Source: a bacterium (lineage in GTDB: Bacteria; B130-G9). From it: DNA of 14,051 nucleotides. This document shows, piece by piece, positions 2,847-13,357 of this stretch. Numbering within the stretch: position 1 is the stretch's first letter; every line of letters begins with the position of its first letter. Where the stretch lies: NCBI GenBank assembly GCA_021160245.1, contig JAGHCW010000027.1, positions 1 to 14,051 of the forward strand. Direction: 5' to 3'. Under the pieces are notes generated by a model. The model did not search any database and was not told the DNA's origin. It saw only the letters and a list, made by a program, of their open reading frames with translations. The position numbers and the translations under genes are program-made.

Positions 2847-4334
2847 ATGTCTTTGACAAGTATATGGGAACGCGCAAGGGAGCGAGTGGCAGGAAATCGG
2901 CTACTTCTGGCCATCATATCTGGCGGGATAGTCATCAGACTCGCCGTCTATTTGCGAGGCGGAAGCCTGTGGCATGACGAGGCGGCGCTTGCGCTAAACG
3001 TCCTGCATCATCCTTACCTAGAGTTATTGGGCCGTCTTGACCACGTTCAGGTCTCTCCACCACTCTTCCTGTTGCTGTCCAAGGCCGCTTTTGAGCTCTT
3101 TGGGCATCTTGAGTACTCGTTTAGGTTACTGCCGCTCATCGCCGGATGTGTTAGCCTCATTCTATTCGCCCGTCTGGTCCTTAGGTTCGTGCCCGGCTTC
3201 TTCGGGATATGCGCCGTCTCGCTCTTTTCATTTGGGCTTTATGCAATAGACTACACGGTAACATTCAAGCATTACGCCTCAGACCAGCTCTGCGCTTTGC
3301 TTGTTCTATATGCGGCCAGCCATTGGGACAAAAGCTCGGCCGGCAGGCGCTATCTTTTGGCGCTAATCCTGCCCTCTTGCCTCTGGTTATCATACACGTC
3401 GGCATTCACGCTCAGTGGGCTTGCTCTCGTCGCGGCGATCTCTGCGTTCGTCAGTCGAGATAGGGATAGACATAGGCAAGTTGCGCTTGGCCTTTTAATC
3501 ATCTCAATCGCGGTCTGGGCGGGTTCAGTCTATCTTGGGGCTGCCCAGCACTCCATCGGAGCGAAGGGGATGATGCAGTTTTGGCAAGAGGGCTTCCCTG
3601 GTCGCCAAGTTGGACTATGGTTATTGCGCAGCGTGCTTGACCTATTTGGCGGAGCGACTGGTTTTATTATTGCCCCGGCGCTTACTTTCCTAATATGTCT
3701 TTGGGGATTCTGCAAGTTTGCGAAGTCTCGCGCCGATTCCTCCATAAGCGCTCTCGCGGGCGGGGCGCTTGCGTCGGCCATTCTGGCGAGTTTCCTGCAC
3801 ATTTACCCGTTCACGCAGGGCAGACTCTCCGCATATTTCGCGCCGCTTGCCCTCCTGCTCATGGCCAAGGGGCTTGATACTGCCTACGAGACTGTAAAGA
3901 GAACAGGCGCAAGGCGATTGGTGCGTGGTCTTTCGGTAGCTCTTTTAATCGCCATGGCGATGGGGCTTCTATACTCTGCGGATAAGCTCTTCGTTCGGCA
4001 GGAGGTGAGGGCGATCGCCCATTCCTTTGCACGACAAAACGACACCTCAATCCCAATAATGCTTACTGAGCAGAATTACCTGCCATTCATTCTCTATGGC
4101 GGCCAGCGCCTCGAACCACGTATCATCAGAATGGAGAAAGAGAGGCTCAGCTGGCGGAATCTATTCGGCACGTGGTTCAGGCAGGGCAAACCGGACCGCT
4201 TCTGGCTTGTGGTCTCCTATTGGGATGCTGACTACTTCGACGAGACCGCCGCGGAGATGAGTACGCTATTTGACGTTAAACAGACGTTTCAGAAGGGCGA
4301 GACGGTGGTTGTCCTGCTGGAGCGGCACCCATGA
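2847..4334 (+). CDS. GT-C fold (GT39-like) integral membrane glycosyltransferase
   Basis: This is a 495-residue polytopic membrane protein. After the first hydrophobic segment (about 18-37) comes LWHDEAA with D44 and E45, the acidic pair in the first extracytoplasmic loop of GT-C enzymes. It is followed by QVSPPLFLL (P71-P72), matching the HPPL-type motif of the PMT/ArnT superfamily. About ten hydrophobic segments run to about residue 378, and then a soluble C-terminal domain of about 110 residues ends the protein. Family knowledge suggests transfer of a sugar from a lipid-phosphate donor at the outer face of the inner membrane; donor and acceptor cannot be read here. The ATG start has GGAG 9 bases upstream. 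The C-terminal half is homologous to the 3' half of the broken gene just upstream, so this was a tandem family. The stop overlaps an ATG at 4331 of the following broken gene. Confidence 0.75.
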   Translation: MSLTSIWERARERVAGNRLLLAIISGGIVIRLAVYLRGGSLWHDEAALALNVLHHPYLELLGRLDHVQVSPPLFLLLSKAAFELFGHLEYSFRLLPLIAGCVSLILFARLVLRFVPGFFGICAVSLFSFGLYAIDYTVTFKHYASDQLCALLVLYAASHWDKSSAGRRYLLALILPSCLWLSYTSAFTLSGLALVAAISAFVSRDRDRHRQVALGLLIISIAVWAGSVYLGAAQHSIGAKGMMQFWQEGFPGRQVGLWLLRSVLDLFGGATGFIIAPALTFLICLWGFCKFAKSRADSSISALAGGALASAILASFLHIYPFTQGRLSAYFAPLALLLMAKGLDTAYETVKRTGARRLVRGLSVALLIAMAMGLLYSADKLFVRQEVRAIAHSFARQNDTSIPIMLTEQNYLPFILYGGQRLEPRIIRMEKERLSWRNLFGTWFRQGKPDRFWLVVSYWDADYFDETAAEMSTLFDVKQTFQKGETVVVLLERHP

Positions 4335-6514: not shown

Positions 6515-6543
6515 TTGACCGCTTACGGAGGCCGATATATATT
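6515..6543 (+). promoter_or_regulatory. Sigma70-like promoter of the three-gene operon
   Basis: TTGACC (6515-6520), a 17-base spacer and TATATT (6538-6543) match the consensus in sequence and spacing. It lies in an AT-rich island (6535-6562) within GC-richer surroundings. A second TATAAT at 6553-6558 lies just downstream but has no -35 at a proper distance. Transcription would begin near 6550, giving a leader of about 80 bases before the ATG at 6632. Confidence 0.65.
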
Positions 6544-6631
6544 GACTAGCTATATAATTTCACTTTCTGACAACCGCTTTGAAGGGCAAGCCTAATTGCG
6601 GCCCTCGAGGAGACCACGGGATACATGAGCA

Positions 6632-9049
6632 ATGACCGTAAATAAGAATCGCAATTCTGACATTTTCGCCACGCTTTGTCTGCTTGTTTTGTGGGCAATC
6701 GCCTTGCCCGGCATCGTCGCCGCCGACGAGGGGAAGGTCGAGATAGCCATCGCCTATACGGCGGAAACACACGCGATGATTGAGCCCTGCAACTGCCCGG
6801 TTGAACCTTTGGGCGGCGTTTCGAGGCGAGCGCATCAGATCAAAGAGCTTCGCTCGGAGCTCAAGCATCTTCTCGTTCTTGATGGCGGCGGCACGTTTGC
6901 GAAGGGTATCTATGACGAATATGTTCAGGGAGAGGTTCTTGACAGAAAGCGAACAGTTATTCAGCTCAAGGCGATGGCCAAGATGGCATACGACGCGGTC
7001 TGCGTAGGCGATGATGAGTTTGGATTCGGTCAGGAGGCGATCAGATGGGCGGAAAGCGAGCTTCACCTGCCATTTGTCTCCTGCAATATCAAGACAGGCG
7101 CCGGTGAGTTCTTTGTGGCGCCGTATGTTACTAGGAAGTTCTCCGGATTGACGGTTCTTATCACCGGCGTATGCACGCCCGAGGTGGCGGAGGGGGACAA
7201 CTGGAAGCATTTTGCGGGCCTCAAGGTCATTGACCCTCAAAAGGCGGTCTCGGACCTGCTGGCGAAGCACGCAAAGCCTGCCGATGTCGTTCTTCTGCTC
7301 TCGCATCTCGGGGAGGAGGCATCAGAGAAGCTCACGCAAAACGTCAAGGGCATTGATGTCGTCTTCAACGCCAATAGGCGAAAGTCAACGCGCAACTCCT
7401 TCGAGGTCGGCGCCACGCATCTTGTCAACTTCGATTATCAGGGCCAAAATCTCATACTAGCGAGTATCAGGCCATGGGAAACAAAGCTCTCCGACAGATT
7501 CTCTATGGAAGAAATACCGCTCAGCAAGGAAATTCCAGACGATCCCGAGGTCGCGACGCTGGTGAATGAGTTCAAGCAACTGGTCGAAGCCGGTGAGTTT
7601 CAACCGAAGGTTACGATGGACCTTTACATGATGAGTCAATGCCCCCACTCAAAGCCCGCGCTGAGAACGCTCTTTCAGGTCAGACGGGAGACAGATGGCG
7701 CACTAGAGCCTCATATTTACTACCTCGTCCGGCAAGATAAGAATGGCGATTTCAGCGCAATGTACGGCGAGGAGGAGATTCAGGAGGACATGAGGCGTAT
7801 CTGCATTGAAAAGGTCCAGCCCAAGAAGCTCGTCTCGTATATCGTATGCAGAGACAATGCAGTCGCCGGCGCTTCCTGGACAGACTGCGCCTCGAGAATA
7901 GGCATAGATCTCGACGCGCTGAATAGATGTTTGGCCAGCGATTATCCGAAGAAGGAACTAACCAGCATGGCGATGAGGTCTGAGCGACTGAGAGTCGAGG
8001 CTTCTCCGACCATATATATAAACAACCGGAAATTTGGCGAGCGGCTGGACGAGACCTATCTTAAGCGAGGCCTCTGCCGCGCGTTAGGCCCGCTGGCAGA
8101 CCGCATCGAGGCTTGCAGCAAGCTGCCCAAGTGCTTGCACGATTATGATTGCCCCCAGAAAGAGGGGATGATCTCAAAGTGCATAAAGCCCGGAACTCCT
8201 GACGCGGAGTGCGTCTATGAGGAAGCGGTCAAAGTCCCGCTGACGGTGCTTTTTGACGATCACGCTATTGCGGCAAATGAGGCGCGAATAGTCGCATCGA
8301 CGAAGATGATGATGCCAGGGCTCATCGTTGAGAAGGTCGAGGCGTCAACGCCCGAGGGCAAGGCGCTTGCTGAGAATTACGGCATTGATCGTCTTCCGGG
8401 CTATATCTTTGGCGAGGAGGTTACGCGCGCTCGCAACTTCGAACGGCTAAAGTCGGCCCTGGAGAGGCGGAAGGACCGGCTGGTTTTTAGACCGGACCTC
8501 TCGGGCGCAATGATTTACTCGCTTCGGCCTCGGATTGCGGGCAAGGTTGACATTTTCATCTCTGCGACCGCAAGAGCTGGGCTCGACGGCCTCTCCAAGA
8601 TAGTAAAGCTGCGCAAGGAGGGCCATGCTAAATACGACTGTGATCTGCATTATATGGTCTATCGCGATGAGAAGAATCAGCTGGTAGCTCGAGGAGGGCT
8701 TGCGGAGCTTCAGGAGGCCAGACGACAGGTTGCGATGAAGATTCTGGACGGCTCGAAGTTCGATGAGTATATCGTAATTCGAGCTGGACAACCCGACAAC
8801 TCCTATTGGGAGGAGCCAATCGAGCAGGCCGGCCTAAGCCCAGTTGAGGTCAAGAAACTCACGAGCTCAGAAAAGGTGAGCTCCCGCCTCATGCAAGACG
8901 CGAAGCTCTGTAAGGAGCTTCGGATAGGCGGTGGGCTGGTTTTTCTTGTAGATAACCGAGAGATAATCCCGATAGCCAGCAACAAGATGCTGGAGGAGAT
9001 TCTTGAGAAGCTATCAAATCGACGAACGAAAGGGACGGATACGCAATGA
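6632..9049 (+). CDS. Exported metallophosphatase-like protein fused to thioredoxin-like domains
   Basis: 805 residues. A Sec signal peptide (basic start, hydrophobic core 11-30, cleavage near A30-A31) sends it to the periplasm. Residues about 37-300 follow the UshA/5'-nucleotidase metallophosphatase fold: EPCNCPVEPLGGVSRRA (51-67), LLVLDGGGTF, MAYDAVCVGDDEFGFG, LPFVSCNI, LLLSHLG (222-227). The metal motifs are lost: TND-H-G has become TAETHA, DAGD is DGGG, GNHEF is GDDEF and GHSH is NANR. Residues about 326-485 are DsbA/GILT-like, with LYMMSQCPHS (C337, a single redox Cys) and the cis-proline loop ASPT (457-460). A Cys-rich segment follows (C495, C501, C507, C517, C527), then a degraded thioredoxin-like segment (about 536-612) and a third (about 638-795) where FISATARAG replaces the cysteine motif. 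The ATG is the first possible start; GAGGAGA is 18 bases upstream, rather far. The stop overlaps the next start (ATGA). Function is unknown. Confidence 0.75.
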   Translation: MTVNKNRNSDIFATLCLLVLWAIALPGIVAADEGKVEIAIAYTAETHAMIEPCNCPVEPLGGVSRRAHQIKELRSELKHLLVLDGGGTFAKGIYDEYVQGEVLDRKRTVIQLKAMAKMAYDAVCVGDDEFGFGQEAIRWAESELHLPFVSCNIKTGAGEFFVAPYVTRKFSGLTVLITGVCTPEVAEGDNWKHFAGLKVIDPQKAVSDLLAKHAKPADVVLLLSHLGEEASEKLTQNVKGIDVVFNANRRKSTRNSFEVGATHLVNFDYQGQNLILASIRPWETKLSDRFSMEEIPLSKEIPDDPEVATLVNEFKQLVEAGEFQPKVTMDLYMMSQCPHSKPALRTLFQVRRETDGALEPHIYYLVRQDKNGDFSAMYGEEEIQEDMRRICIEKVQPKKLVSYIVCRDNAVAGASWTDCASRIGIDLDALNRCLASDYPKKELTSMAMRSERLRVEASPTIYINNRKFGERLDETYLKRGLCRALGPLADRIEACSKLPKCLHDYDCPQKEGMISKCIKPGTPDAECVYEEAVKVPLTVLFDDHAIAANEARIVASTKMMMPGLIVEKVEASTPEGKALAENYGIDRLPGYIFGEEVTRARNFERLKSALERRKDRLVFRPDLSGAMIYSLRPRIAGKVDIFISATARAGLDGLSKIVKLRKEGHAKYDCDLHYMVYRDEKNQLVARGGLAELQEARRQVAMKILDGSKFDEYIVIRAGQPDNSYWEEPIEQAGLSPVEVKKLTSSEKVSSRLMQDAKLCKELRIGGGLVFLVDNREIIPIASNKMLEEILEKLSNRRTKGTDTQ

Positions 9050-10746
9050 TCATTCTAGGTATAAGTGCTTTTGAACACGATTCCGCCGCTTGCCTGCTGG
9101 AAAGTGGCCAGCTCGTGGCAGCCGCTCAACAGGAACGCTTCTCGAGGATAAAGCACGATGGCGCCTTCCCAAGCGACGCGATTGAGTTCTGTCTTTCACA
9201 AGCAGGCGCCACGATACGCGATGTTGATTGGGTAGGCTTCGCCGGCGTCAAACGTTCGGATATCTACAAAAAGGCCCTTCACATTATCAAGAATGTGCCA
9301 AGATCACTGAGTATGCGCTGCTGCACGGAGGAGAAAGTCTGCGTCTTCAAAGTGCCGGCGACCGCCAAGGCTCAGCTTAGGATGCTGCCCGGCTACAGGG
9401 CAAAGGCGAGGCTGAAATTCCAGTTAGTTCCTTATCATATCTGCCATGCTTACGGTTCATTCATGCCATCGCCTCACGACAAGGCGGCGATTCTTGTGGC
9501 CGACGGCGACTTGGGCTGGATGACCACGCTTTTGGCCGGCGGACGAGGTGCGGATGTGCAGACGTTCAAACAGATGTTTTTTCCGATGTCGCTCGGCGCC
9601 TTCTATTCAACCATGACGAGCTATCACGGTTTTAAGCCCATCGCGGACGATCAGAGAGTCATGGCCCTCTCGCTCGAGGGCAGCGACCATTACTATCCGG
9701 AGTTCAAGCGAATGCTGCGGCTTTCTGCGGACGGCGAGTTCAAGCTCGACCTATCATTCTTCAATCACCAATACGGCAAACCGCATCGCTATACTGATAA
9801 ACTAAGGCTCGCATTTGGCGAGAGCAGACCGCCCGCATCAGAAATTACCCAACGGCACAAGGACATCGCACGAGGCTTTCAGTTACGGCTTGAGGACGCC
9901 ATCGTTCACGCGGCCCGCTACCTGCACACAGTGACCGGCAGCAAGGCTATATGCCTAGGGGGAAGCGTTGCGAATAATAGCCTCGCATGCGGCAGAATAC
10001 TTGAGCAAACGCCATTCGAGCAAGTCTTCGTCCAACCGGCCGCGGGCCAGGCAGGCGCAGCAATTGGCGCGGCGTTTTATATCCACAATAATGCACTAGA
10101 TAACCGGCGCAACTTCGCTCTGAAGAGCACGTCGCTAGGCCCCGAGTTCAACCGTGAGGAGATTGCGTCGCTGCTCAATCAGTCGAAGCTGCAGTACAAA
10201 GAAGTGGAGAACCCAGAGATGCAGGCGGCAAGCTTGCTTGCGAAGGGCAAGACCGTCGGTTGGTTTCAGGGGCGTATGGAGTTTGGGGACGGCGGCCTCG
10301 GCAATCGCTCCGTACTGGCCGACCCTCGAGTCGCGGAGTCCCGCAAGACCGTCGGCGCGCAGATTGAGGACGCTGAACCTTACCCACTATTTGCCGCGTC
10401 GATTCTGGCTGAGAAGGCATCTGAGTTCTTCGCCTCGGCAAAGCCGTCTCCCTTTGCCTCGTCTTTCATTCGAGTTCTGAGGGACAAGGTCGATTCGATT
10501 CCCGCGGTCGTTCTGCCGGATGGAACCGCCAGGCTTCACACGGTCGATAGCGAGACTAACGCTCTTTATCATGGCCTCATCACGGAGTTTGAGAAGTTGA
10601 CGGGCGTCCCGGTTATACTGATCGCGCCGCTCAAGTCGAAGGACGGGCCTGTGGTTCGATCCCCGCAGGATGCGCTGCGAGCCTTTTATACCGCCGGCCT
10701 CGACAATCTCGTCATCGGCAATTTCGTTCTGAGCAAATCCCCGTGA
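9046..10746 (+). CDS. Divergent NodU/CmcH-family carbamoyltransferase homologue
   Basis: 566 residues, normal length, cytosolic. Family members move carbamoyl from carbamoyl phosphate, through carbamoyl-adenylate, onto small molecules such as antibiotics and Nod factors. Seen: ILGISAFEHDSAA (3-15), QQERFSRIKHD, YHICHA (H131, H134; metal/ATP site of the Kae1-like domain), VADGDLGW (D153), LGGSVANN, VQPAAGQAGAAIGAA (329-343), GWFQGRMEFG and LGNRSVLADPR. Several C-terminal hallmarks are altered: GPRALGNRS is GDGGLGNRS (residues 414-422), RE-FRPFAP is EDAEPYPLFAA, NTSFN-GEPIV is IAPLKSKDGPVV (526-537), and the middle GEYKVMGLA is DDQRVMALS. Loss of the conserved arginine and NTSFN makes normal carbamoyl transfer doubtful. 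The start overlaps the previous stop by 4 bases, and the stop overlaps a GTG at 10743. It sits between two exported phosphatase-like proteins. It is a real, intact gene, but the substrate and activity are unknown. Confidence 0.85.
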   Translation: MIILGISAFEHDSAACLLESGQLVAAAQQERFSRIKHDGAFPSDAIEFCLSQAGATIRDVDWVGFAGVKRSDIYKKALHIIKNVPRSLSMRCCTEEKVCVFKVPATAKAQLRMLPGYRAKARLKFQLVPYHICHAYGSFMPSPHDKAAILVADGDLGWMTTLLAGGRGADVQTFKQMFFPMSLGAFYSTMTSYHGFKPIADDQRVMALSLEGSDHYYPEFKRMLRLSADGEFKLDLSFFNHQYGKPHRYTDKLRLAFGESRPPASEITQRHKDIARGFQLRLEDAIVHAARYLHTVTGSKAICLGGSVANNSLACGRILEQTPFEQVFVQPAAGQAGAAIGAAFYIHNNALDNRRNFALKSTSLGPEFNREEIASLLNQSKLQYKEVENPEMQAASLLAKGKTVGWFQGRMEFGDGGLGNRSVLADPRVAESRKTVGAQIEDAEPYPLFAASILAEKASEFFASAKPSPFASSFIRVLRDKVDSIPAVVLPDGTARLHTVDSETNALYHGLITEFEKLTGVPVILIAPLKSKDGPVVRSPQDALRAFYTAGLDNLVIGNFVLSKSP

Positions 10747-10749
10747 GGA
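10745..10749 (+). promoter_or_regulatory. Ribosome binding site supporting the ATG at 10761
   Basis: GAGGA overlaps the previous stop codon and lies 11 bases before ATG 10761. The alternative GTG at 10743, overlapping the stop as GTGA, has no visible site upstream. Both starts give a signal peptide, so the mature protein is unaffected. Confidence 0.4.
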
Positions 10750-10760
10750 TAGTTGGGAGA

Positions 10761-11849
10761 ATGGACCTCTCATCGCAAGCCAGCATGAAGCTCCTGGGTG
10801 GCGTTTGCAAATCAAGCGCCCTTGTGATTTTTGCCGCGGCGCTCATCCTCTGCGCCGGCACAAGCGCCTCGTGCCTTGCGGATGATGATTTCGACGGTAT
10901 AAAGGTTGATTTTGAGCAAGTGGCCACTCCCAGCCTCATGGCTTTCTTCACGGGCAACACCTATGGGACGATGACCAGGTCCAGCTGCTCCGACCCCCAA
11001 CTCGGTGGCTTTGAGAGGCGCCGCGCGTTCATCCTCCAGTGCCTTCCCGATGCCGACGAATTATTGCTCGTGGATGCGGGTAACCTGTTTGCAGCCAACT
11101 GCGAACGCGAGAGGGTCAAGGCGCACTACATAATCGCCGCATTCAACATGATGGCTTACGATGCGGTGGCGCTCGGCCCAACGGATTTCGTCTTTGGGCT
11201 TGATTTCTTGAAGACGCTCGCCGGGAAGGCCAAGTTTCCGTTCATTTGCGCGAATCTCGTGGATTCTACGACTCAGGAGCCCATATTCGACACGGTCTTC
11301 TATCCGGAGACCACTGCCGCTACGGTTTGTGTTACGGGTGTCATCTCGATGCGCCACGAGGACTTCATCGTCGATTGCACGACTGACGAGGCGGGGGAGA
11401 GGCCGGTTGAGCTGATCGATCCCCTAGACGCGCTTGCAGCGAATTTTCCGGCAACCGAGAGCACAACGAACGTCATCATCGTGATGGCGCAGATGGCTTT
11501 CGACGAGGCGATGATGGCTGTCGATCGCTTTCCTGAGATTGATCTGCTCGTTATCTCGGACAGAGGGCGGCACGATGACCTCGTCCGCGGCAGCACTTAC
11601 ATCACAGATGTTGGAACGAAGGGCAAGTTCTTCAAGGGCGCCGCGCTCCTCCCATACGACGAATCCCCCGATCTGCGATTTCATGTCGAGACGTTCCCCA
11701 TCGTCGAGGAGATTGAACACTCATACAGCATGCGCCGTTTATATGAGCGCTTCCTGTCTGGCCGGAAATCACTTCTGCCCGAGCGACTTGTGCAGGAGCC
11801 GTTCATTATTGACCGCAGAGTCTATCATGATCCGGAAATTCATTATTAG
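10761..11849 (+). CDS. Second exported metallophosphatase-like protein with lost metal site
   Basis: 362 residues from ATG 10761 (368 from GTG 10743). A signal peptide with hydrophobic core ALVIFAAALILCAG precedes a likely cleavage after SCLA, so it is periplasmic or, less likely, anchored. The body mirrors the phosphatase domain of the first operon gene: FFTGNTYGTM, CSDPQLGGFERRRAF, LLLVDAGNLF, MAYDAVALGPTDFVFG, FPFICANL, FPEIDLLVISDRGRH. Metal-site motifs of UshA-like enzymes are again replaced: TND-H-G by TGNTYG, DAGD by DAGN, GNHEF by GPTDF, SHLG by AQMA and GHSH by SDRG. Only the phosphatase-like part is present; the C-terminal nucleotide-binding domain of 5'-nucleotidases and the thioredoxin part of its paralogue are both missing. 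It ends the operon. It is most likely a pseudoenzyme or binding protein working with the 6632-9049 product. Confidence 0.7.
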   Translation: MDLSSQASMKLLGGVCKSSALVIFAAALILCAGTSASCLADDDFDGIKVDFEQVATPSLMAFFTGNTYGTMTRSSCSDPQLGGFERRRAFILQCLPDADELLLVDAGNLFAANCERERVKAHYIIAAFNMMAYDAVALGPTDFVFGLDFLKTLAGKAKFPFICANLVDSTTQEPIFDTVFYPETTAATVCVTGVISMRHEDFIVDCTTDEAGERPVELIDPLDALAANFPATESTTNVIIVMAQMAFDEAMMAVDRFPEIDLLVISDRGRHDDLVRGSTYITDVGTKGKFFKGAALLPYDESPDLRFHVETFPIVEEIEHSYSMRRLYERFLSGRKSLLPERLVQEPFIIDRRVYHDPEIHY

Positions 11850-11910: not shown

Positions 11911-13357
11911 ATGAGCCAACTGGTCTTTCGTCAAGGGACAATCTCCCTGATAGCAACCATATTAGTCATGGGCGCGTTGCCCATTGCGGCGAACGCCCGG
12001 CCATCGATAAACATCCACACCGACCGGCCCGTATATGACTCGGGCGATGTGCTCGAGGTAAGTCTCTCAGGCGAGAACCTCGTTGAGACTATGTGGGTTG
12101 ATGTTTACGTCGGCCTCTTGACGCCAAGCGGTGAGCTCTGGACGATGGGGGATGGCTGAAGCAGAGCGGTTGTTCCGTGGATTGAGTCGCTTTGTGTCCC
12201 ATGGGGCTTCAATATAGATCATACGCCATTCTTATGGTTTGAGATTCCCTGCGACGTCCCTCCCATAATCAAGAATGGCGATTACTCTTTTGCAGCGGGC
12301 GCGACGCGGCCCGGGACGCTGGAGTTCACGTTCGATATCGATTTCGCGCCATTCATAATCGGCCGTGAGGAATTGCACTTCTACGTTGACGGCGAAACAG
12401 GCGATGACGCAGGCGACGGCTCGCTAGATTCCCCATTTACGGCACAGAGTCGAGATTCGTGAATATCCACATCGCGGCCGGCACGAACTCGTCCTCAATT
12501 AATCAAGAGACTTTTCCGCTGAACATGAAGAGCTAGTGTCTTTGGCCAGCGAGGACCGCGACACGACGATACTGGATGCCCAGGACAACGCCGGCCATGT
12601 CATCCGGTGCAATAATGTCCATAATCTGACAATCGAGGGATTGACGATTGAGGGCGGCGATTCATATTCTGCCACCGGAGGGGGCATTCACTGTGCCAGC
12701 AGCAGCCCTGTAACAAGGGGCAATACTATAAACCAGAATCGGGCGGAGGATGGTGGGGGGATATTCTGCGGGAATAACAGCTCGCCCACGATAATAAACA
12801 GCACCATTTCGGGCAATTCTGCACGCTATGGCGCCGGGACCTCCTGCGCGGAAAGCTCGCTCACAATTGAAAACTGCATTATCTCGGACAACATGGCGTA
12901 CTACGACGGCGGTGGCGGACTATACTGCGGTCGTGGTACATTTTCCGATCCCTCTTCGCCAGCGACCATTGTGAACAACACGATCGCGAGCAACATTGCC
13001 GGCGACTCTGGCGGCGGGATATGCCGCGGACCGTCTGGCCGGCCATTCATCATCAATTGCATCATCTGGGGCAAAGGCGAGGAACTATCTGGCTGCTCCG
13101 CCACTTATTGCTGCATCGAAGACCTCGAAAAGGGCGAGGGCAACATCCAGAACGCCCCGATGTTCGTCACCGGTCCTCTCGGCGAATACTACCTCCACCC
13201 GCTTAGCCCGTGCATCGACGCGGGGAGCCAACCGGCGGCGGATGCGGACCTCGATAGCAAGACGACGCAGACGGATGGGAAGCCGGATACAGGGACGGTC
13301 GATATGGGGCGCCATTATCCGGTCACCGAAGATGATGATCGAGGCAGCGACCTATGA
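11911..13357 (+). pseudogene. Decayed gene for an exported right-handed beta-helix (DUF1565-like) protein
   Basis: The product would be about 480 residues. From ATG 11911 (AAGGTG 6 bases upstream) come a signal peptide ending near IAANA and a beta-rich domain (TDRPVYDSGDVLEVSLSG). The frame meets TGA at 12157-12159 but continues recognisably (SRAVVPWIESLCVPWGF to FYVDGETGDDAGDG) until TGA at 12460. The sequence then moves to frame 3 (NIHIAAGTNSSSINQETFPLN, about 12459-12533, ending in TAG) and to frame 2 from about 12536 (VSLASEDRDTTILDA). The last part carries beta-helix repeats with GGGIHC, GGGIFC, GGGLYC and GGGICR turns and NTI/STIS/CIIS strands, and ends with PCIDAGS and VDMGRHYP. Such proteins are secreted or surface-attached and of unknown ligand. 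Each frame change would be repaired by one added base. Three lesions in one gene indicate decay, unless the assembly is poor here. Confidence 0.75.

Follow-up and report, generated by a model that had tools for sequence, protein, structure and literature searches.

A conserved operon of two exported UshA-like proteins and a class III carbamoyltransferase homologue in Candidatus Coatesbacteria

Composition and conservation of the operon

The stretch of DNA analysed here (the window, 14,051 nucleotides; contig C98, JAGHCW010000027.1) belongs to a 3.43 Mb genome in 244 contigs (GCA_021160245.1), assigned to the uncultured family Candidatus Coatesbacteria, for which the annotation is carried by two same-family genomes. 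It contains an operon of three genes, in which g1 and g3 encode exported UshA-like proteins and g2, lying between them, encodes a homologue of class III carbamoyltransferases. A first-pass annotation made from the sequence of this DNA had reported three full-length open frames with short overlaps and a well-formed promoter, and had read them as three proteins that lost their catalytic residues together. The features of the operon are as follows.

6515–6543, + strand: sigma-70-like promoter, TTGACC-17-TATATT, matching 10 of 12 consensus positions, with a counterpart in three relatives
6632–9049, + strand: g1, exported UshA-like domain followed by tandem thioredoxin/GILT-like repeats, 805 aa
9046–9049, + strand: ATGA stop–start overlap of g1 and g2, kept in four genomes
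9046–10746, + strand: g2, class III carbamoyltransferase homologue with a Kae1-like half (residues 1–345) and a YrdC-like half (395–566), catalytically dead as judged by sequence
10743–10746, + strand: GTGA stop–start overlap of g2 and g3, reading GTGA, ATGA and GTGA in the three relatives
10743–11849, + strand: g3, second exported UshA-like protein, 368 aa, without a haem domain

The family sample comprised four genomes, namely that of the window and three others (G001, G002 and G003). The order and strand of g1, g2 and g3 are identical in all three others (G001:C151, G002:C370 and G003:C165), with identities to the window copies of 56–57% for g1, 50–53% for g2 and 46–48% for g3. The open frames and both overlaps reported at first were confirmed, and the overlaps recur in the three relatives. 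The promoter claim held in a different way: a scan of the window alone was unremarkable (4 sites found versus 3.0 expected), but TTGACA-18-TATATT stands upstream of g1 at the matching place in all three relatives, and this conservation across four genomes is significant and speaks against a chance site. A ratio of nonsynonymous to synonymous change (omega) of 1 on the window branch was rejected for g1, g2 and g3 by about 82, 39 and 30 log units, respectively (two-ratio model versus omega fixed at 1); synonymous divergence (dS) on this branch is saturated, so that only the rejection is used and no value of omega is given. Since genes, overlaps and promoter recur in three other genomes of the family, the operon is under selection, and it is a vertically kept, translationally coupled unit of Candidatus Coatesbacteria. 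No relatives of g1 were found in viral contigs. The operon combines known protein families in a new way and does not amount to a new kind of system.

The exported proteins g1 and g3

The best NCBIfam match of both exported proteins was NF041198, the UshA-like (seleno)protein family (UshA_like_PCGU), at 136.6 bits for g1 and 126.9 bits for g3; these whole-protein scores stay below the curated cut-off of 275 bits, and both proteins match the first half of the profile only. The C-terminal half of the profile (about 343–518), which is haem-bearing in relatives, is absent from g1 and g3 and present in a further copy in the same genome (contig C173) and in G001 and G002. In published work this family is listed as a selenoprotein with a C-x-U motif and no function (PMC2398784, PMC13188914), and none was found elsewhere in the literature searched. 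The residues and domains that matter here are listed below.

6788–6796, + strand: C53-N-C55 of g1, C-x-C/C-x-U centre, from alignment with relatives of either type (C-x-U, with TGA, or C-x-C)
7592–8077, + strand: first thioredoxin/GILT-like domain of g1, with C337 kept and the second active-site Cys replaced by Ser (CPHS)
8075–8212, + strand: Cys-rich linker of g1 (C482, C495, C501, C507, C517, C527), invariant in five genomes from two phyla
8537–9001, + strand: second thioredoxin-like repeat of g1, without a conserved Cys pair
10986–10988, + strand: C82 of g3, second Cys (the selenocysteine, Sec, position) of the C-x-C/U centre, from alignment; the first Cys is Ser

The centre was aligned across several genomes with relatives of both kinds, C-x-U (encoded with an in-frame TGA) and C-x-C, the C173 copy among them. 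C53 and C55 of g1, as well as the Ser and C82 of g3, are invariant among the four orthologues; the g3 centre, reading S-S-C, agrees only partly with C-x-C, all four orthologues retaining the second Cys. The UshA ligands DxH, GD, GNHE and GHxH are replaced in g1 by ETH, DGGG, GDDE and FNAN, and the metal ligands are absent or incomplete in g3 too, as elsewhere in the subfamily. An AlphaFold2 model of g1, with a predicted local distance difference test score (pLDDT) of 82, matched UshA, CD73 and SoxB at Z of about 28–30 over about 280 residues; the N-terminal domain of g1 thus has its fold in common with the thiosulfohydrolase SoxB and the 5′-nucleotidase UshA, whereas their di-metal ligands are missing in g1 and g3. 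These comparisons indicate that g1 and g3, rather than being decayed phosphatases, belong to a lineage in which the metal site was replaced by C-x-C/U, that the missing-ligand state is ancestral and common to more than one phylum, and they support a role of g1 and g3 other than phosphohydrolysis. With the NF041198 family the two proteins share the UshA-fold domain, the C-x-C/C-x-U in place of DxH and export, whereas they lack its cytochrome c554-like half, g1 adds thioredoxin-like repeats and g3 keeps the second Cys only.

The C173 copy (G000:C173:6363-7691, L066) carries TGA in frame at the C-x-U position, and one half of it resembles cytochrome c554. Because the same genome carries SelB over cut-off (C90), this protein is probably a genuine selenoprotein.

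Homologues in another phylum join the two exported proteins in one chain. Two Armatimonadota records (JAKPQA010000349.1 and WJIW01000254.1; L085 and L086) fuse g1, then g3 and a haem tail, in the order UshA(C-x-C), thioredoxin-like repeats, UshA(C-x-C) and four CxxCH with a cytochrome c554 match, and they score 319–320 bits against NF041198, above the cut-off.

L085:4054-7677 and L086:8001-11567: Armatimonadota fusions, each about 1,200 aa, no function assigned

The fusions resemble the operon in the UshA-like C-x-C, the thioredoxin-like repeats and the second UshA-like domain, and differ from it in being a single chain with four CxxCH and with CxxC in the thioredoxin-like domain, and in having no carbamoyltransferase neighbour. 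The motif of the first thioredoxin-like domain reads CPHS in the window, CPYS, CPHS and CPYA in G001, G002 and G003, and CPHC and CGYC in the Armatimonadota homologues. UshA–thioredoxin fusions without g2 also occur in other genomes, one of them with cytochrome c554 between the two parts. Since Armatimonadota encode the counterparts of both exported proteins as one chain, together with thioredoxin-like repeats and a tetrahaem cytochrome, the pair g1 and g3 probably acts together, as a joint envelope assembly.

Two further observations concern the thioredoxin-like part. A 992-aa protein at L104:556-3531 (− strand) carries UshA(EPCGC), four CxxCH (cytochrome c554) and thioredoxin-like repeats in another order, and stand-alone tandem thioredoxin/GILT repeats, often lipoprotein-like, are widespread in unrelated genomes (L100, L101, L103, L107, L108, L109 and L110).

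Catalytic motifs of g2

The g2 product has both carbamoyltransferase domains over cut-off (PF02543, 4.6e-48; PF16861, 3.4e-44) and aligns with GdmN nearly end to end across the two catalytic domains of GdmN; in a tree, g2 and its three operon orthologues form one group with support of 100/100. The iron ligands of GdmN are H133, H137, D156 and D333, with H27 as the base (PMC9633730), and YrdC has a catalytic tetrad K-x-R...S-x-N (PMC9654439). The following changes were found in the window copy.

9433–9435, + strand: H130Y, lost iron ligand (GdmN H133), from comparison with GdmN and relatives
10048–10050, + strand: D335Q, lost iron ligand (GdmN D333), from comparison with GdmN and relatives
10288–10293, + strand: FGPRALG changed to FGDGGLG (P415D, R416G), from homologue alignment
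10366–10374, + strand: K441E and R443A, lost K-x-R half of the YrdC tetrad, from homologue alignment
10627–10635, + strand: S528P and N530K, lost S-x-N half of the YrdC tetrad, from homologue alignment

The iron site of the window copy reads Y130, H134, D153 and Q335, with two of four ligands lost and the base H11 (GdmN H27) kept. Iron ligands, base and KxR/SxN tetrad are intact in g2 of all three syntenic relatives, so that homologues with intact active sites do stand in the same neighbourhood, the situation that the first-pass annotation had named as refuting its reading. Among 26 homologues, 97 columns were conserved at ≥90% (locus L032 was left out of the tree and of this count); the window copy departs from 28 of the 97, the operon orthologues from none, the others from 0–7 and one very divergent paralogue from 18. 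Twenty of 52 invariant columns are altered in the window alone. Conserved positions are better kept in the Kae1-like half than in the YrdC-like half (39/48 versus 30/49; Fisher p = 0.04). The amino-acid branch to the window versus the rest of the tree measured 0.88/0.27 for g2, 0.53/0.73 for g1 and 0.88/1.09 for g3, a ratio of about 3.3 for g2 versus 0.7–0.8 for g1 and g3. These comparisons indicate that the catalytic loss of g2 is specific to the window lineage and was accompanied by acceleration, and the window copy is a probable lineage-specific pseudoenzyme. Like the class III O-carbamoyltransferases TobZ and GdmN, g2 has PF02543 and PF16861, and the copies of its relatives are motif-complete; unlike them, the window copy is without KxR/SxN and has only two of the four iron ligands, and the GdmN-type C-terminal dimerisation domain is missing. 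No relevant paper on carbamoyltransferase pseudoenzymes was found in a literature search.

Sequencing error is ruled out as the source of these changes, which are scattered substitutions with no frame slip, the YrdC-like half aligning to relatives without gaps. A second intact g2 of the operon type was not found in the same genome, where the other carbamoyltransferases are 29–38% identical and fall outside the operon clade. This genome holds six more class III carbamoyltransferase genes or fragments (C95, C67, C152, C190, C209 and C239), and the C239 copy is very divergent, with 18 of 93 conserved positions altered.

Interpretation and neighbouring frames

Our preferred reading, to which we give slightly better than even odds (about 0.55), is that g1 and g3 may form an exported UshA-like redox assembly, whereas g2, motif-complete in the relatives, may persist in the window as a non-catalytic pseudoenzyme and/or a translated link. 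The two exported proteins would constitute one envelope thiol–disulfide or electron-transfer assembly, which in Coatesbacteria, where the haem part is lacking, would rely on Cys53/Cys55 and Cys337 in g1 and on Cys82 in g3. The g2 enzyme of the relatives would form carbamoyl-AMP and carbamoylate a cytosolic acceptor that this assembly requires or with which it shares its regulation. Catalysis by g2 would have been lost in the window lineage, where it was possibly taken over by one of the six additional carbamoyltransferase loci, intact or fragmentary, or was no longer needed, and g2 could have been kept as a binding or scaffold protein without catalysis and/or as a translated link coupling g3 to g1. 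A more specific version, which we regard as improbable, would have the haem-less split redox protein work with the cytosolic carbamoyltransferase, and the window enzyme would by now serve this pathway as a scaffold pseudoenzyme; the carbamoyltransferase might, for example, modify a ligand (a thiol or a hydroxyl) bound for the Cys centre of the exported proteins, a loose parallel to HypF/HypE in hydrogenase maturation.

Whether g2 in the window is retained or decaying is the main point to be weighed. It is possible, though on balance unlikely, that selection was simply relaxed after the loss of function and that the frame is open by luck or through coupling to g3, and this would fit the extreme lineage-specific acceleration of g2, the conserved stop–start overlaps, which make translation of g3 likely to depend on g2, and the other broken genes close by. 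Nevertheless, when an intact orthologue was mutated at random until it differed at 24 of 84 conserved positions, with indels ignored, this neutral drift to a nearly window-like loss gave a mean of 7.3 stops, and none of the 300 runs was free of stops, whereas the frame of the window copy has neither stop nor frameshift. Family-wide conserved sites were kept twice as often as clade-specific sites (71% versus 35%), the YrdC-like half is free of gaps, and omega = 1 was rejected on the g2 branch, though with dS saturated and the time before the loss included. The absence of stops, set against the simulation, and the unequal retention of sites argue that the g2 protein was under selection once catalysis had been lost, or for much of the time in which it was being lost. 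An altered rather than lost activity, with another acceptor or activated donor and a re-built active site, would agree with the retention of H11 (GdmN H27), H134, D153 and R410/R421 and with the better-kept Kae1-like half, but the sites of both half-reactions are struck, among them the whole KxR/SxN tetrad and two of the iron ligands, with no sign of replacement ligands, and we hold this explanation to be improbable.

Several points weigh against the preferred reading. A late loss of g2 function followed by a short decay would also be compatible with the open frame, selection before and after the loss is inseparable at saturated dS, and the coupling of g3 translation to g2 is an alternative reason for the frame to stay open. 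The structure model of g2, built from three sequences only, had a pLDDT of 33 and was not used. No carbamoyltransferase-like gene lies near the Armatimonadota fusions, and the link to g2 is drawn from Candidatus Coatesbacteria only (four genomes, one family); the thiol or electron chemistry proposed for g1 and g3 is deduced solely from Cys conservation and fusion partners.

The view of the first-pass annotation, that a joint catalytic loss of all three proteins gave rise to a novel non-enzymatic cytosol–envelope system, is now hardly credible. The canonical UshA and carbamoyltransferase motifs are literally absent in the window, as it had noted, but g1 keeps the C-x-C of its own subfamily and g3 the second Cys, the absence of phosphatase residues is usual in the described family with this Cys/Sec centre, and three syntenic relatives pair the same exported proteins with a fully intact g2, which rules out a joint loss. 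Because the state of g1 and g3 is ancestral and the loss of g2 is found in the window only, the apparent three dead enzymes represent two separate events of different age. The selection it had supposed for a non-standard role is borne out by the purifying selection on all three genes and by the predicted non-phosphatase role of g1 and g3, but not for a joint system. The cytosolic–periplasmic pairing that it could not name is likewise partly placed, in that another phylum has a fused redox-type protein whose halves correspond to g1 and g3.

The preferred reading turns split and fused UshA-like forms with thioredoxin-like repeats and cytochrome c554 into a concrete, testable redox hypothesis for a widespread UshA-like (seleno)protein family, with g3 as the partner of g1. 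Furthermore, the apparently naturally inactivated g2 of the window and its motif-complete orthologues from the same operon provide a clean pair for asking what remains of such a protein without both half-reactions.

The broken genes reported near the operon were also recovered. At 1336–2767 a membrane glycosyltransferase-like gene is split over two overlapping frames by a frameshift, adjoining an intact PMT_2-type paralogue at 2847–4334. Downstream of g3, a frame for an exported protein at 11911–12465 looks broken: near 12157 it contains an in-frame TGA that interrupts it, and a beta-helix frame comes next at 12536.

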